A stretch of DNA of 64,000 nt from Nocardia sp. BMG111209 (lineage in GTDB: Bacteria; Actinomycetota; Actinomycetes; Mycobacteriales; Mycobacteriaceae). The notes under the pieces were generated by a model. It made no database searches and was not told the DNA's origin. It saw nothing but the letters and a program-made list of their open reading frames with translations. Location of the stretch: positions 868,001-932,000 of the forward strand of contig NZ_KB907307.1 of the NCBI RefSeq assembly GCF_000381925.1, written 5' to 3'. The position numbers and the translations under genes were made by a program. Shown piece after piece: positions 14,036 to 21,544 of this stretch. Within the stretch, counting starts at the first letter, position 1. Each line of letters begins with the position of its first letter.

Positions 14036-14458
14036 TCACTGCGGCGGGGCGACTCCGGTGTCCTCGTCGTCGGTCGTGCTGCGTGCGTCCTCGGCAGCTT
14101 CGAGCTTAGCGAGTGCCTCGCGCAGCGCGGCAGCCTCGTCCTTGCCGACCTGTTCCACGAAGTGCACGAGCGCCGCGCGGCGGCTGCCCACCTCGTCGGC
14201 CTGCTGCAACGCGTCGACCATGAGGCTGGCGACCAGTTCGTCGCGGGTGTGCACCGGCGCGTACCGATGCGCGCGATCGTCGCGCTGCTGCACGACCAGA
14301 TTCTTCTTGGCCAGGCGCTGCAGCACGGTCATCACCGTGGTGTACGCGAGTTCGCGCCGCGCTGCGAGGGCCTCGTGGACCTGCCGGACCGTCTGCGGTT
14401 CGTCGGCCGACCACAACTGGTCCATGACCGCTTTCTCGAGTTCACCAAGACCTGCCAT
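14036..14458 (-). CDS. blaI: BlaI/MecI-type winged-helix repressor
   Basis: 140 residues. The N-terminal winged helix opens MAGLGELEKAVMDQLW and continues with the recognition-helix region AYTTVMTVLQRL; a C-terminal dimerisation helix region follows, then an acidic tail. BlaI represses its own operon and, in M. tuberculosis (Rv1846c), a beta-lactamase and respiration-linked genes. It is first in the minus-strand set blaI, M56 protease, helicase. A dyad with BlaI-like half sites lies 35-51 nt upstream of the ATG. The usual cleavage site for an M56 partner is not obvious to me by eye. Confidence 0.92.
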   Translation of the reverse strand: MAGLGELEKAVMDQLWSADEPQTVRQVHEALAARRELAYTTVMTVLQRLAKKNLVVQQRDDRAHRYAPVHTRDELVASLMVDALQQADEVGSRRAALVHFVEQVGKDEAAALREALAKLEAAEDARSTTDDEDTGVAPPQ

Positions 14459-16621: not shown

Positions 16622-17674
16622 TCACAGGTTCACCGTCCGGCGGCGGCGCACCAGGACGACGAAGCAGGGTGCGCCGACCAGCGCCAGTACGACCGCGGCC
16701 TGTACCTCGCCGGGCCGGGCGACGATCCGGCCGGCGATGTCGGCCAGCAGTAGCGCCAGCGCGCCGAGCAGTCCCGAATACGGCAGCAGCCAGCGGTGAT
16801 CCGGTCCGGTGATCATCCGGGCCAGATGCGGGACGACCAGTCCGAGGAAGGCGATCGGTCCCACCGCCGCGGTCGCCGCGCCGCACAGCAGCACCACCGC
16901 GATCAGGCCCAGCGTGCGATTGCGCGCGATGTGCACGCCCAGTCCACGGGCCACGTCGTCGCCGAGGTTGAGCGCGTTCAGGCCGGGGGCGGCCGCCACC
17001 GCCAGCACCGCGCCGAGCGCGATGAACGGCGTCACCTGCCGCAGCACCCCGGCGTCGTGCCCGGCCACCGAGCCGACCACCCAGAACCGGTAGGTGTCCA
17101 GCGCGGTCTGGTCGAGCAGGATCACCGCGTTCGTCAGGGCCTGTAACAGCGCGCTGACCGCGGCGCCGGCGAGCACCAGGCTCAGCGGGCTCGCCAGCGA
17201 GCCGCCGGCCGCCGAGGCCGCGAACACCACGAGCCCGGCCACCAGCGCGCCCGCGAAGGCGAACCAGATGTACTGCCGCGGCTGGGTCAGCGCGAACAGG
17301 TGGATGCCGAGCACCGCCGCGAACGCCGCGCCGGAGTTGAGGCCCAGCAGGCCCGCGTCGGCGAGCGGGTTGCGGGTGTACCCCTGGATCAGCGCACCCG
17401 CGACACCCAGGGCGAGACCGCAGACGATCGCGAGACCGGTTCGGGGCAACCGCAATTCGCGCACGATCCGGTCGGCGGGGGTGCGCGACGGGCAGTGCAG
17501 CGGCCAGTCGCCGGGGCAGGTGAGGGCGTGGTAGACGGCGTCCGGGGACAGCGCCCGCGCCCCCACCGCGATACCCACCGCCGCCGCGCACAGCACGAGC
17601 ACGGTGAGGCCCGCCAATCCGGCGGCCAGGGGCGGTTTTCCGCGCCGCGGCCGGCGGGTGACTACAGCGGTCAC
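16622..17674 (-). CDS. FecCD-family iron-siderophore permease, first subunit
   Basis: 350 residues, multi-spanning. Family segments LRLPRTGLAIVCGLALGVAG and GPIAFLGLVVPHLARMI (the ATPase-coupling loop) are clear. It is the first gene of the uptake operon. AGGAG lies 12 nt before the GTG at 17674, a rather long spacing. Upstream is an IdeR-like box (17718-17736) shared with the divergent FhuF-like gene, so the operon is expected to be induced under iron limitation. Confidence 0.93.
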   Translation of the reverse strand: MTAVVTRRPRRGKPPLAAGLAGLTVLVLCAAAVGIAVGARALSPDAVYHALTCPGDWPLHCPSRTPADRIVRELRLPRTGLAIVCGLALGVAGALIQGYTRNPLADAGLLGLNSGAAFAAVLGIHLFALTQPRQYIWFAFAGALVAGLVVFAASAAGGSLASPLSLVLAGAAVSALLQALTNAVILLDQTALDTYRFWVVGSVAGHDAGVLRQVTPFIALGAVLAVAAAPGLNALNLGDDVARGLGVHIARNRTLGLIAVVLLCGAATAAVGPIAFLGLVVPHLARMITGPDHRWLLPYSGLLGALALLLADIAGRIVARPGEVQAAVVLALVGAPCFVVLVRRRRTVNL

Positions 17675-17717: not shown

Positions 17718-17736
17718 TCTGGTAAGCCTAACCTAT
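17718..17736. promoter_or_regulatory. IdeR/DtxR iron box in the divergent siderophore promoter
   Basis: TCTGGTAAGCCTAACCTAT matches 14 of 19 positions of the IdeR consensus (TTAGGTTAGGCTAACCTAA), with the right half nearly intact. It lies between the permease operon (minus) and the FhuF-like gene (plus), 44 and 57 bp from their starts. Confidence 0.75.
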
Positions 17737-17793: not shown

Positions 17794-18501
17794 ATGTCCG
17801 CACCCATGCCCGTGTGCCCCCCACCGCACCACGAGCCCGCGTTCGGGCAGGTCTGTGCCAGGTTGCGCGCGATGCAGCCGGACCATCCTCGCGTCTACGC
17901 CGTCGCCGGTATGGCCGATCAGGGCCGGCGGCGCTGGTGGCGGCTCGCCGACGGGATCCGGGAGGGCCGGGTCGAACTCATGTACCGGCGGCACGTCGCC
18001 GAGATGACCAGTCCGGAGATCGCCGCCGAGGTGGTGGCGACCGCGCTGATCCACGGCGTGATCGGCCGGGTCACCGCGCTGCTGGTGGCCGACGGCCGGG
18101 CCTGGGACCCGGGCCTCGAGAACCTCTGGATGCACTCCGACAACGACGGCGGCGTGGACTGGGCGGGCCTGGACGACACCACGTTGCGCGTGGTGACGGG
18201 CGATCGGCTCGCCGGTGCGCCGGGTGTGGTCACGCTGCCGTGCGATCGTGCGCTGTACCTGTGGCTCGCGCATCGCTGTGAGCCGGCGCTACGGCTGGTG
18301 CAGCACACCATGTTCCGTTGTGCCGGGCTGGGCCCGCGCCGGTACTGGGCGCTGGTCGGGGAGAGCGTGCTCGGCGCGGCGACCTATGTGCCGGAGCTGG
18401 CGCGCACCTCGTCGGCGGCGGGCAGCGCGCGCGGTCAGGGTTTCGTGGCGGCGCTCGAGGAACGGCGGCTCCCGGTGCGCCGGGCTTGCCTTGTTAGGTA
18501 A
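17794..18501 (+). CDS. FhuF-like siderophore-iron utilisation protein
   Basis: 235 residues, soluble. The segment MTSPEIAAEVVATALIHGVI, followed by a Trp-containing region and a C-terminal HRCEPALRLVQHTMFRCAG, recalls actinobacterial FhuF-like ferric-siderophore reductases. The paired-cysteine iron-sulfur motif typical of FhuF is absent; only scattered Cys are present. The function is therefore uncertain: an iron-release factor or a non-redox accessory. GAAGGAGG gives an excellent ribosome site. It is divergent from the permease operon across an IdeR box, and a second IdeR box overlaps its stop codon. Confidence 0.6.
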   Translation: MSAPMPVCPPPHHEPAFGQVCARLRAMQPDHPRVYAVAGMADQGRRRWWRLADGIREGRVELMYRRHVAEMTSPEIAAEVVATALIHGVIGRVTALLVADGRAWDPGLENLWMHSDNDGGVDWAGLDDTTLRVVTGDRLAGAPGVVTLPCDRALYLWLAHRCEPALRLVQHTMFRCAGLGPRRYWALVGESVLGAATYVPELARTSSAAGSARGQGFVAALEERRLPVRRACLVR

Positions 18502-18515
18502 GGCTGCCCTACAAT
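18486..18515 (+). promoter_or_regulatory. Promoter overlapped by an IdeR box (18494-18512)
   Basis: TTGCCT (18486-18491) and TACAAT (18510-18515) are separated by 18 bp. The segment TTAGGTAAGGCTGCCCTAC at 18494-18512 matches the IdeR consensus at 15 of 19 positions and covers the spacer and part of the -10. Iron-loaded IdeR bound here should block transcription. The transcript would start near 18522. Confidence 0.75.
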
Positions 18516-18521
18516 CGAATT

Positions 18522-18615
18522 CGGCGTACGGATCGAGTGTTAGTCCCGAGGGCTGCGGTCGACTTCCCGATCCCTGCCGCGGCGGGTCCCATCCGGGATG
18601 GGACCCGCCGTTTCG
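18522..18615 (+). ncRNA. mrsI: Candidate iron-regulated small RNA, MrsI-like
   Basis: A promoter with an IdeR box is followed about 60 nt later by a 13-bp perfect hairpin and a T-rich tail, giving a transcript of about 94 nt with no ORF. The only internal fold I see is GCGG (18555-18558) with CCGC (18577-18580), exposing a C-rich loop around TTCCCGATCCCT. In M. tuberculosis the iron-sparing sRNA MrsI (ncRv11846) lies between blaI (Rv1846c) and Rv1847. Here the candidate lies directly before the Rv1847-type thioesterase, on the same side of blaI. Synteny and logic match; I cannot compare the sequence. Confidence 0.65.
18581..18609 (+). terminator. Intrinsic terminator of the candidate sRNA
   Basis: GGCGGGTCCCATC (18581-18593) pairs perfectly with GATGGGACCCGCC (18597-18609) over a CGG loop, followed by GTTTCGCTT. 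It stands between the IdeR-boxed promoter and the thioesterase start, separating the two transcripts. Confidence 0.85.
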
Positions 18616-18644
18616 CTTCGCGGGCTGTGTGTAACGCTGGATTC

Positions 18645-19085
18645 ATGACCGAGCAAGATCCCCCCGCCTCCCTCGCCGGTATGACGCCCGAGCAGCTCAC
18701 CGCGCTCAGCGGCGACTCCTTCAGCGACCTGATCGGGCTGAAGTTCACCGAGCTGAGCCCCGATCGGGTGACCGGCGAACTGGTGGTCACGCCGCGGCTG
18801 CATCAGCCGCACGGGATCGTGCACGGCGGCGTCTACTGCTCGATCATCGAAACGCTCGCGAGTGTGGCCGCGGGGATCTGGTTCGGCGATCGCGGCCGGG
18901 TCGTCGGCGTCAACAACAACACCGACTTCCTGCGCGCGACCCGCGAGGGCACGGTGCACGGGGTCGCGACGCCGATCCACCGCGGACGCTCGCAGCAACT
19001 GTGGCAGGTCGTGATCACCGACGATCAGGAGCGGGTGGTCGCCCGCGGCCAGGTGCGGCTGCAGAACCTCACGAACGAGAGCTGA
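18645..19085 (+). CDS. PaaI-type hotdog-fold thioesterase
   Basis: 146 residues. The hotdog helix segment [18 protein letters not shown] and the strand [17 protein letters not shown] fit small acyl-CoA thioesterases of the PaaI type. It corresponds to Rv1847 in the conserved block just upstream of urease. The acyl substrate is unknown. The ATG at 18645 lies 35 nt after the sRNA terminator, so it probably has its own promoter or depends on read-through; I saw no strong ribosome site. Confidence 0.88.
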
Positions 19086-19164
19086 CCCACCCGGCAATCG
19101 GTCGGCGCGACGCGGTCCCGCGTGCGTGCCACAATGTCGCGCACATACTTCGCGAGGAGCACGC

Positions 19165-19467
19165 ATGCGATTGTCGCCGCACGAGCAGGAACGGCTCATG
19201 CTCAGCTACGCGGCCGAGCTGGCCCGCCGGCGGCAGGCACGCGGGCTGAAGCTCAACTATCCGGAGGCGGTCGCGATCCTCACCGATCATGTCCTCGAGG
19301 GCGCCCGCGACGGCCGCACCGTCGCGGAGCTGATGTCCTCCGGCCGTACGGTCCTCACCCGCGACGACGTCATGGCCGGCGTCCCGGAGATGATCGACGA
19401 CGTCCAGGTGGAGGCCACCTTCCCGGACGGCACCAAACTCGTCACCGTTCACCACCCCATCGGCTAG
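19165..19467 (+). CDS. ureA: Urease subunit gamma
   Basis: 100 residues, the standard length of the gamma subunit of the nickel urease that hydrolyses urea to ammonia and carbamate. [11 protein letters not shown] opens the protein, and the internal segment [21 protein letters not shown] is family-typical. GAGGAG lies 6-7 nt before the ATG. First gene of ureABC; the beta subunit starts 8 nt downstream. Confidence 0.98.
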
Positions 19468-19823: not shown

Positions 19824-21544
19824 TGGCATCGATCTCGCGCGCTCGCTATGCGGCACTGTACGGCCCGACCGCCGGGGACCGGATTCGATTGGCCGACACC
19901 GATCTTCTGATCGAGATCACCGAAGACCGCAGCGGCGGACCGGGTTTCGCCGGTGACGAGGCCGTATTCGGTGGCGGCAAGGTGTTGCGCGAATCCATGG
20001 GCCAGGGCCGCGCCACCCGGGCCGAGGGCGCTCCGGACACCGTGATCACCGGTGCGGTGATCGTCGACTACTGGGGAATCATCAAGGCCGACATCGGTAT
20101 TCGCGACGGCCGGATCGTGGGCATCGGCAAGGCCGGTAATCCGGACACCATGGACGGCGTGCATCCGGAACTGGTGGTGGGACCGTCCACGGAGATCGTC
20201 GCCGGCAACGGGAAGATCCTCACCGCCGGCGCGCTGGACACCCACGTGCACTTCATCTGCCCGCAGCTGGTGCCGGAGGCGCTCGGCGCGGGCATCACCA
20301 CGCTGGCCGGCGGCGGCACCGGCCCGGCGGAGGGCAGCAAGGCCACCACGGTCACCCCCGGCGCCTGGCATCTGGGCCGGATGCTCGAGGCGATGGATCC
20401 CTGGCCGGTGAACGTCCTGCTGCTCGGCAAGGGCAACACCGTGCGCCAGGAGGCGCTGTGGGAGCAATTGCGCGGCGGCGCGGGCGGTTTCAAGTTGCAC
20501 GAGGACTGGGGCTCCACCCCGGCGGCGATCGACGCCAGCCTCACCGTCGCCGACGCCTCCGGCGTCCAGGTGGCGCTGCACTCGGACACGCTGAACGAGG
20601 CGGGTTTCGTCGAGGACACCATCGCCGCGATCCGGGGGCGGGCCATCAACGCCTATCACGTCGAGGGCGCCGGCGGCGGGCACGCGCCGGACATCATCAC
20701 CCTCGCCGGGGTCGCGAACGTGCTGCCCGGTTCGACCAATCCGACCCGGCCGCACACCGTCAACACCATCGATGAGCATCTGGACATGCTCATGGTGTGC
20801 CATCACCTGAATCCGGCGGTCCCGGAGGATCTGGCCTTCGCGGAGAGCCGGATCCGGCCGTCCACGATCGCCGCCGAGGATCTGCTGCACGATCTGGGCG
20901 CGATCTCGATGATGAGCTCGGACTCGCAGGCGATGGGCCGGATCGGCGAGGTGGTCATGCGCACCTGGCAGACCGCGCACGTGATGAAGCGCCGCCGCGG
21001 CGCGCTGGCCGGCGACGGCCGGGCCGACAACAACCGGGTGCGGCGCTACATCGCGAAATACACCATCTGCCCGGCGGTCGCACACGGTCTCGACCACGAG
21101 ATCGGCTCGGTGGAGGTCGGCAAGCTGGCCGATCTGGTGCTGTGGGATACCAAGTTCTTCGGGGTGCGGCCGGATCTGGTGTTCAAGGGCGGCACGATCG
21201 CCTGGGCGGCGATGGGCGACGCCAACGCCTCCATCCCCACCCCGCAGCCGGTGCTGCCGCGGCCGATGTTCGGCGCCGCGCCGGCCGTGGTGGCGCAGAC
21301 GTCACTGCATTTCGTCGCCGAGCAGGCGATCGAGGACGGCCTCGCCGATCGGCTGCGGGTGCAGCGCGCTCTCGTCCCGGTCGCGAACGTCCGCGCGCGC
21401 ACGAAGGCCGATATGCCGAACAACGACGCCCTGCCGCGGATCGAGGTGGATCCGGACACCTTCACCGTCCGCATCGACGGTGAGGTGTGGGCGGAGCAGC
21501 CCGCCACGGAACTGCCGATGGCGCAGCGCTACTTCCTGTTCTGA
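19823..21544 (+). CDS. ureC: Urease subunit alpha (catalytic)
   Basis: 573 residues. The di-nickel site is intact: His141 and His143 (THVHF), the carbamylated Lys224 ([10 protein letters not shown]), His253 and His279. The mobile flap carries Cys326-His327 (VCHHL). The 3' end overlaps the convergent TetR gene by 16 nt. The accessory genes do not follow directly as in M. tuberculosis; they resume at ureF 3.2 kb later, after a TetR/MFS/SDR cassette. Confidence 0.99.

Follow-up and report, generated by a model that had tools for sequence, protein, structure and literature searches.

Small RNA MrsI (ncRv11846) lies between blaI and rv1847 in Mycobacterium tuberculosis, at 2096766-2096867 (+), and carries an IdeR box (PMC8628891). 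The small RNA (sRNA) is described as about 100 nt long, with a 6-8 nt seed in a 7-nt apical loop, a terminator and, in both M. tuberculosis and M. smegmatis, an IdeR site near its start; its listed targets are bfrA (in the 5' untranslated region), fprA and hypF (PMC11188477). It is reported to be induced in low iron (PMC7029489). A 64,000-nt stretch of Nocardia sp. BMG111209 (contig NZ_KB907307.1, positions 868,001 to 932,000; hereafter the window, with positions counted from its first letter) raises the question of whether a short element ahead of a thioesterase gene, which a first-pass annotation made from sequence alone had called a probable MrsI ortholog, is the same RNA, and on what it would act. 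We conclude that the element is very probably the MrsI gene of this genome, an iron-starvation sRNA predicted to target the aconitase (acn) mRNA by loop pairing.

A promoter, an IdeR box and a terminator

Read base by base, the element has a -35 hexamer TTGCCT at 18486-18491 (+), of which TTGC is kept in most aligned copies, and, after a spacer of 18 nt, a -10 hexamer TACAAT at 18510-18515 (+), which is of TATACT or TACACT type in most relatives, just as the annotation had read the promoter. The IdeR/DtxR-type box that it had placed over the spacer and the -10 is also present (TTAGGTAAGGCTGCCCTAC, 18494-18512, +): this predicted site agrees at 15 of 19 positions with what we take to be the 19-bp DtxR/IdeR consensus, and it overlaps the stop codon of a FhuF-like gene (17794-18501). 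A Streptomyces DmdR1 site has the same 19 letters as the consensus used for scoring (PMC7174319). The predicted transcript is an MrsI-type sRNA of about 92 nt (18522-18613, +), with its 5' end placed from conservation and the distance to the -10. Near its 3' end is the terminator stem-loop (18580-18610, +), with the loop CCGGG between arms that form a perfect 13-bp inverted repeat (18580-18592/18598-18610); the repeat stands as claimed, but its T tract is weak (TTTCGCTT), and because of this the terminator rule of our scan gave no call.

A promoter scan of 18000-19200 returned one match against 0.1 expected from 50 shuffles. The box pattern, allowing up to three mismatches, returned six matches in the 64 kb against 0.93 expected, four of the six being both strands of the 18494-18512 box and of a second box at 17718-17736; the zero-mismatch match of the element's own box is by construction, because the pattern was written post hoc with N at the positions where that box deviates. 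Chance co-occurrence of promoter and box was ruled out by the scan enrichment and by conservation within the genus, a coding open reading frame by out-of-frame gaps and compensated stems in the alignment, and a phage origin by the lack of any match. The element is confirmed as real, and conservation is decisive.

Distribution across the family

Plain DNA search detected the 171-bp stretch in 34 of 36 same-genus genomes, the window's own among them, and in none of 24 from other genera. Thirty same-genus copies can be aligned over the whole span, -35 and terminator included, and covariance models were built from 27 of them after dropping two at contig ends (L015, L024) and one with a diverged terminator (L025). 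Of 70 genomes from other genera of the family, the model trained on these 27 copies only (R1) matched 48 at E≤0.01 (best 2.2e-7) and 54 at E≤0.1, and at the latter threshold it matched 332 of 396 genomes of genus group g23, which we label Mycobacterium-like from the locus and the number of genomes. R1 also matched 14 genomes from the order's other families, at E 0.003-0.1, and these matches were treated as chance.

A broader model (R3) matched 305 of 401 family genomes, in 21 of 31 genera, at E≤0.01, with much of the searched set resembling its training rows. It gave no match in the other 10 of the 31 genera, among them g27, a genus group of small genomes which we guess to be Corynebacterium. 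In two of these ten genera, diverged copies that have IdeR boxes are present at the thioesterase locus (g102, genome G805; g90, genome G793), which brings the genera with the sRNA to 23, and because the scans missed both, the counts are lower bounds. An IdeR-like box scoring 13-16 of 19 precedes 82 of 83 copies; shuffled upstream sequences reach at least 13 in 1 of 1660 cases.

A known Rfam family was ruled out. In Rfam release 15 the window element stayed below the cut-off (best 19.1 bits), and at gathering score no family was found for four acn leaders (L135, L123, L133, L141) or two other sRNA copies (L092, L048).

A constant loop on a covarying hairpin

The fold of the window RNA has a z-score of -3.7. 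One alignment (A3) brings together 83 homologous copies, drawn from Mycobacterium-like genomes, the window's genus and further genera; in it, 96.6% of pair cells are standard, 27 of 31 pairs are changed on both sides, and the covariation score is 0.423 against 0.163 for shuffled and at most 0.101 for slid alignments; A3 was fitted to a covariance model, which favours structure, and the same stems are visible in a plain MAFFT alignment of the same-genus copies. A basal stem, GGCG/TGCC (18523-18578, +; helix 1, 84.8% of cells paired, 4/4 pairs changed on both sides), encloses the seed hairpin at 18530-18573 (+), made of GGATCG/CGATCC followed by GTC/GAC and CCG/CGG (helices 2 and 3, 98.8% and 99.6% paired), and the terminator is helix 4, covarying and 97.3% paired.

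At the tip of the seed hairpin is a 7-nt loop, AGGGCTG (18549-18555, +), which occurs once in each of the 83 rows, while the pairs that close it vary among copies as CCG/CGG, CUG/CAG or CGG/CCG. Comparison of the copies thus shows an sRNA that is predicted to present an unchanging AGGGCUG loop on a covarying hairpin. The loop is open in the minimum-energy fold of the window RNA. The first inner stem given by RNAalifold, with a 3-nt loop, was replaced by the 7-nt-loop stem, which scored held-out copies higher (L061, 78.8 bits with the resulting model R2 against 74.8 with R1). The first-pass annotation had expected a C-rich loop aimed at ribosome sites; the loop is instead G-rich, and its matches are CAGCCC motifs in leaders, roughly 20-75 nt upstream of start codons.

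A complementary hairpin in the aconitase leader

Aconitase was tried as a classical iron-sparing target. The GGGCTG of the sRNA loop is complementary to CAGCCC, and CAGCCC was found in the acn leader of 28 of 30 genomes. There it usually occupies the apical loop of a hairpin, and its distance to the start codon is mostly 34-46 nt (73 nt in G002). Across 28 leaders this hairpin covaries, with 95% of cells paired and seven of nine pairs changed on both sides; the copy in the window's own genome (G000:C1:1989980, locus L135) has one extra loop base.

The motif also tracks the sRNA. In the first set of genomes, 30 of 32 carriers of the sRNA and 2 of 27 non-carriers had CAGCCC in the acn leader; among 28 genomes read after the idea had formed, the counts were 19 of 20 and 0 of 8, and over all genomes 49 of 52 and 2 of 35. 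Sixteen of the 20 later carriers came from genera new to the reading, and seven of the eight later non-carriers from genera already seen. These counts include G805 and G793 as carriers on the strength of their diverged copies at the thioesterase locus; by genome scan alone, with those two not counted as carriers, the comparison is 47/50 against 4/37. G493 (decayed locus), G812 (motif present, sRNA ambiguous) and G811 (no full acn) were dropped. The first 27 negatives rest on the genome scan, supplemented by the thioesterase locus for 15 of them, and the eight later ones on the R1 or R3 genome scans, with closer checks of G815 and G810; weak scan matches that lack a good IdeR box occur in G808, G386, G303 (the best one), G050, G038 and G039. 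For the negative acn genes, about 80-170 nt or more of upstream sequence was read. For several genomes the reading covered a single acn paralogue (the second paralogues of G796, G798 and G817 were left out), and in G671 and G445, where a paralogue without the motif came first, the main acn was then read. Comparison thus shows a predicted acn hairpin whose complementary loop is conserved and which is present or absent jointly with the sRNA.

Leaders of other iron genes

Of the bfrA leaders of ten Mycobacterium-like genomes, seven carry CAGCCC no more than about 65 nt from the start, and in three of them the site is CAGCCCTCA, a 9-nt match complementary to UGAGGGCUG. In the window's genus, bfr follows bfd, and the bfd leaders of four loci (L106, L107, L109, L104) show, by eye, tandem IdeR-box-like repeats. 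This suggests that bacterioferritin release or storage in this genus is under an IdeR control unlike that of mycobacterial bfrA. Because Mycobacterium-like bfrA leaders mostly carry the site while own-genus bfd-bfr leaders carry IdeR-like boxes and lack it, the MrsI regulon seems to have been rewired around a constant seed.

Two other candidates were rejected. The reported target hypF was ruled out for want of a site within 90 nt upstream, one locus having CAGCCC at -110, and the ferritin-like gene of the window's genus was ruled out because none of its nine loci has CAGCCC; over all ferritin-like leaders the count is 0 of 12, excluding L120, whose start was not found. The same-genus ferritin-like leaders L111-L119 appear, by eye, unusually conserved, with TTAGGNAANACTANCCTCAATAAGG-type repeats and, in most, a TGACCAGC stretch.

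Points against an acn-targeting sRNA

Several observations weigh against reading the element as an MrsI that acts on acn. Three genomes that carry the sRNA (G012, G429, G518) were scored as lacking the acn motif, one of which, G518, has a hairpin loop CGGCCC that could pair through G-U and a CAGCCC outside the hairpin, 59 nt before the start. Two others (G808, G386) have the acn motif with no sRNA detected. The co-occurrence genomes are related, so that Fisher p-values overstate the evidence, and genome scans can overlook diverged copies, as in G805 and G793. G299 has an R1 match (E 0.06) that R3 did not confirm, and one copy of the 83 (L085) has no IdeR box. In single-sequence folding, six of the seven loop bases are paired at a probability of about 0.8 in competing structures. 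Among targets, CAGCCC is absent from the four same-genus bfr leaders found among 14 genomes searched, and at hypF it lies within 90 nt upstream in 0 of 18 loci, the interior of the gene being unscanned.

Two genomes deserve separate mention. G808 (loci L217, L193) has a CAGCCC acn hairpin and no sRNA at the locus or in the genome scan, which could mean that MrsI has diverged, has moved or was lost recently. In G493, a reduced genome of 3.3 Mb, the sRNA hairpin core survives between a matched blaI and a fragmented thioesterase gene (L255), with a degraded box and no terminator seen, and the acn leader loop is CGGCCC.

The alternative that survives best is that the acn hairpin is a separate regulatory element, such as a protein site or a transcription feature, whose match to the sRNA loop is coincidental. 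It would fit the position of the hairpin, which is upstream of the ribosome site and not on it, and the hairpin-like remnants that some sRNA-less genomes show by eye (g95, and the clade of G259 within g23). However, what is constant in the hairpin is its CAGCCC core and not its stem, and some genomes that lack the sRNA keep a stem that the eye can still make out, with a loop that reads CGGACCC, CAGTCCC or GAGACCC. The split among the later-read genomes and the lack of CAGCCC in the hypF and ferritin-like leaders also speak against a coincidence, and we regard a separate element as unlikely, though it keeps a real share of the probability.

The locus and its neighbours

Downstream of the element are a 4HBT/hotdog thioesterase gene of Rv1847 type (18645-19085, +; Pfam PF03061, E 1.2e-15; TIGR00369) and the urease gamma subunit gene ureA (19126-19467, +; PF00547, E 2.9e-47). 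The FhuF-like (siderophore reductase-like) gene upstream, on the + strand, matches PF06276 below the cut-off (E 0.008), and a BlaI-type repressor is encoded at 14036-14458 (-; PF03965, E 2e-28), with about 4 kb of siderophore genes between it and the element. The claimed position on the same side of the Rv1847-type gene is kept widely: a thioesterase gene lies downstream in 25 of 27 loci checked, and blaI lies upstream within the stretch in 19 of 27. The annotation had further proposed a siderophore insertion between blaI and the element. Such genes are indeed there, but they are not specific to the genus, since tblastn finds FhuF-like homologues upstream in 14 of the 27 loci, seven of these 14 being Mycobacterium-like. 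In Rhodococcoides corynebacterioides NBRC 14404 the element lies between a FhuF-like gene and the thioesterase gene, and the 8-kb stretch of that record has a FecCD-type permease homologue beyond the FhuF-like gene; the flanks of most loci, at 1.5 kb, are too short to show genes that far out. In an eight-genome Mycobacterium-like clade (G259, G487, G306, G156, G181, G491, G442, G228), blaI adjoins the thioesterase gene (tblastn); no sRNA was found there, and the best box between the two genes scores 10-11 of 19.

This arrangement invites the explanation that the element acts in cis, as leader or attenuator of the thioesterase(-urease) mRNA, and is not a free sRNA, for which its co-orientation with the thioesterase gene in the 25 loci and the terminator ahead of that gene would be the natural evidence. 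A leader would sit poorly with a spacing to the thioesterase gene that varies by hundreds of bases (match starts at 1620-2079 for elements at 1501), or with L038 and L039, from the same genus, which have no thioesterase match in the fetched stretch. Moreover, the part of the element that stays constant is a hairpin loop with complementarity to other genes, the element is present or absent along with the acn motif, and a free transcript of about 100 nt is reported at the M. tuberculosis locus (PMC8628891, PMC11188477). We consider a cis-acting leader very improbable.

Two further features of the window were noted. The second IdeR-like box, at 17718-17736, lies between a divergent FecCD-type permease gene (16622-17674, -) and the FhuF-like gene (17794-18501, +), which fits iron control of this importer/reductase cluster. 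A match to Rfam RF02514 (5'_ureB_sRNA; 73.5 bits) at 19990-20275 (-) is antisense within the ureC reading frame and is probably conserved urease coding sequence, not an antisense RNA.

Probable identity with MrsI

Like MrsI, the element lies between blaI and an Rv1847-type thioesterase gene on the strand of the latter, has a predicted IdeR box at its promoter, and is of similar predicted size (92 nt), with a 13-bp terminator stem and a weak T tract. Covarying pairs close the 7-nt apical loop that holds its seed, homologous sequence and fold recur in Mycobacterium-like copies at the blaI/thioesterase locus, and the reported bfrA target has its seed match in the leader in 7 of 10 Mycobacterium-like genomes. 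The window's genus differs in having a FecCDE-type importer and the FhuF-like gene between the element and blaI, and in bfr leaders that lack the seed site; and acn, the shared target here, is not listed for MrsI in the published accounts as far as we could consult them. M. tuberculosis MrsI itself was compared by its published description, and the sequence homology is to the Mycobacterium-like copies.

The orthology that had been proposed is supported by homology and not by position alone, with an IdeR box and an identical loop in Mycobacterium-like genomes, and the covariance-model search that had been suggested as a check, run with the own-genus model, recovered the same RNA there. That an IdeR-repressed sRNA arose independently at the MrsI locus, as might be argued from that comparison by description and from the published target hypF lacking a seed site just upstream, is scarcely credible, as it would not give matches to an own-genus-trained model in Mycobacterium-like genomes, at the same locus where this was read and with the same loop. 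A literature search, mostly of open-access papers and so weak evidence of absence, found no report of MrsI outside mycobacteria or of a link between MrsI and acn.

A proposed mechanism and its meaning

In iron-replete cells, iron-loaded IdeR would bind 18494-18512 and block the promoter. Under iron starvation, transcription from near 18522 would yield an RNA of about 92 nt and stop at the 13-bp terminator, ahead of the thioesterase gene. The GGGCUG core of this RNA's loop would pair with the CAGCCC of target leaders. Among these predicted targets the best conserved is acn, whose mRNA encodes aconitase, a large iron-sulfur enzyme; there, a loop-loop (kissing) contact on the leader could repress translation or destabilise the mRNA, and iron would be spared. 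Since the acn site is upstream of the ribosome site, destabilisation or hindered ribosome entry would be likelier than direct occlusion. We propose that kissing-loop repression of acn is the conserved core of the MrsI regulon. It also seems likely, if less certain than the identity of the element, that MrsI is family-wide, with acn as its ancestral core target through a CAGCCC hairpin kept or lost with the sRNA, and with bfrA and others gained or lost by lineage.

The predicted RNA resembles RyhB of Escherichia coli, PrrF of Pseudomonas, FsrA of Bacillus subtilis and IsrR of Staphylococcus aureus in being a metal-repressor-controlled sRNA that would lower iron-using proteins. RyhB is named as a regulator of aconitase (PMC7308464), and the four sRNAs are described as having no homology or synteny among them (PMC9410917). 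IdeR/DtxR control, not Fur control, is predicted here, and some of the four have the help of Hfq or Fbp and a C-rich motif, in contrast to the loop-loop pairing upstream of the ribosome site predicted for this element. For mycobacteria, neither Hfq nor ProQ is described (PMC7308464).

MrsI is one of the few mycobacterial sRNAs with a known role, and its presence across much of the family would make it an evolving system that can be followed: the seed stays constant, the stems are compensated, the RNA is lost in places and its targets change. The comparison predicts that the aconitase mRNA carries a hairpin receiver for MrsI. If true, this would explain how iron scarcity restrains the tricarboxylic acid cycle in bacteria such as mycobacteria, and it would show an sRNA acting by loop-loop contact away from the ribosome site.
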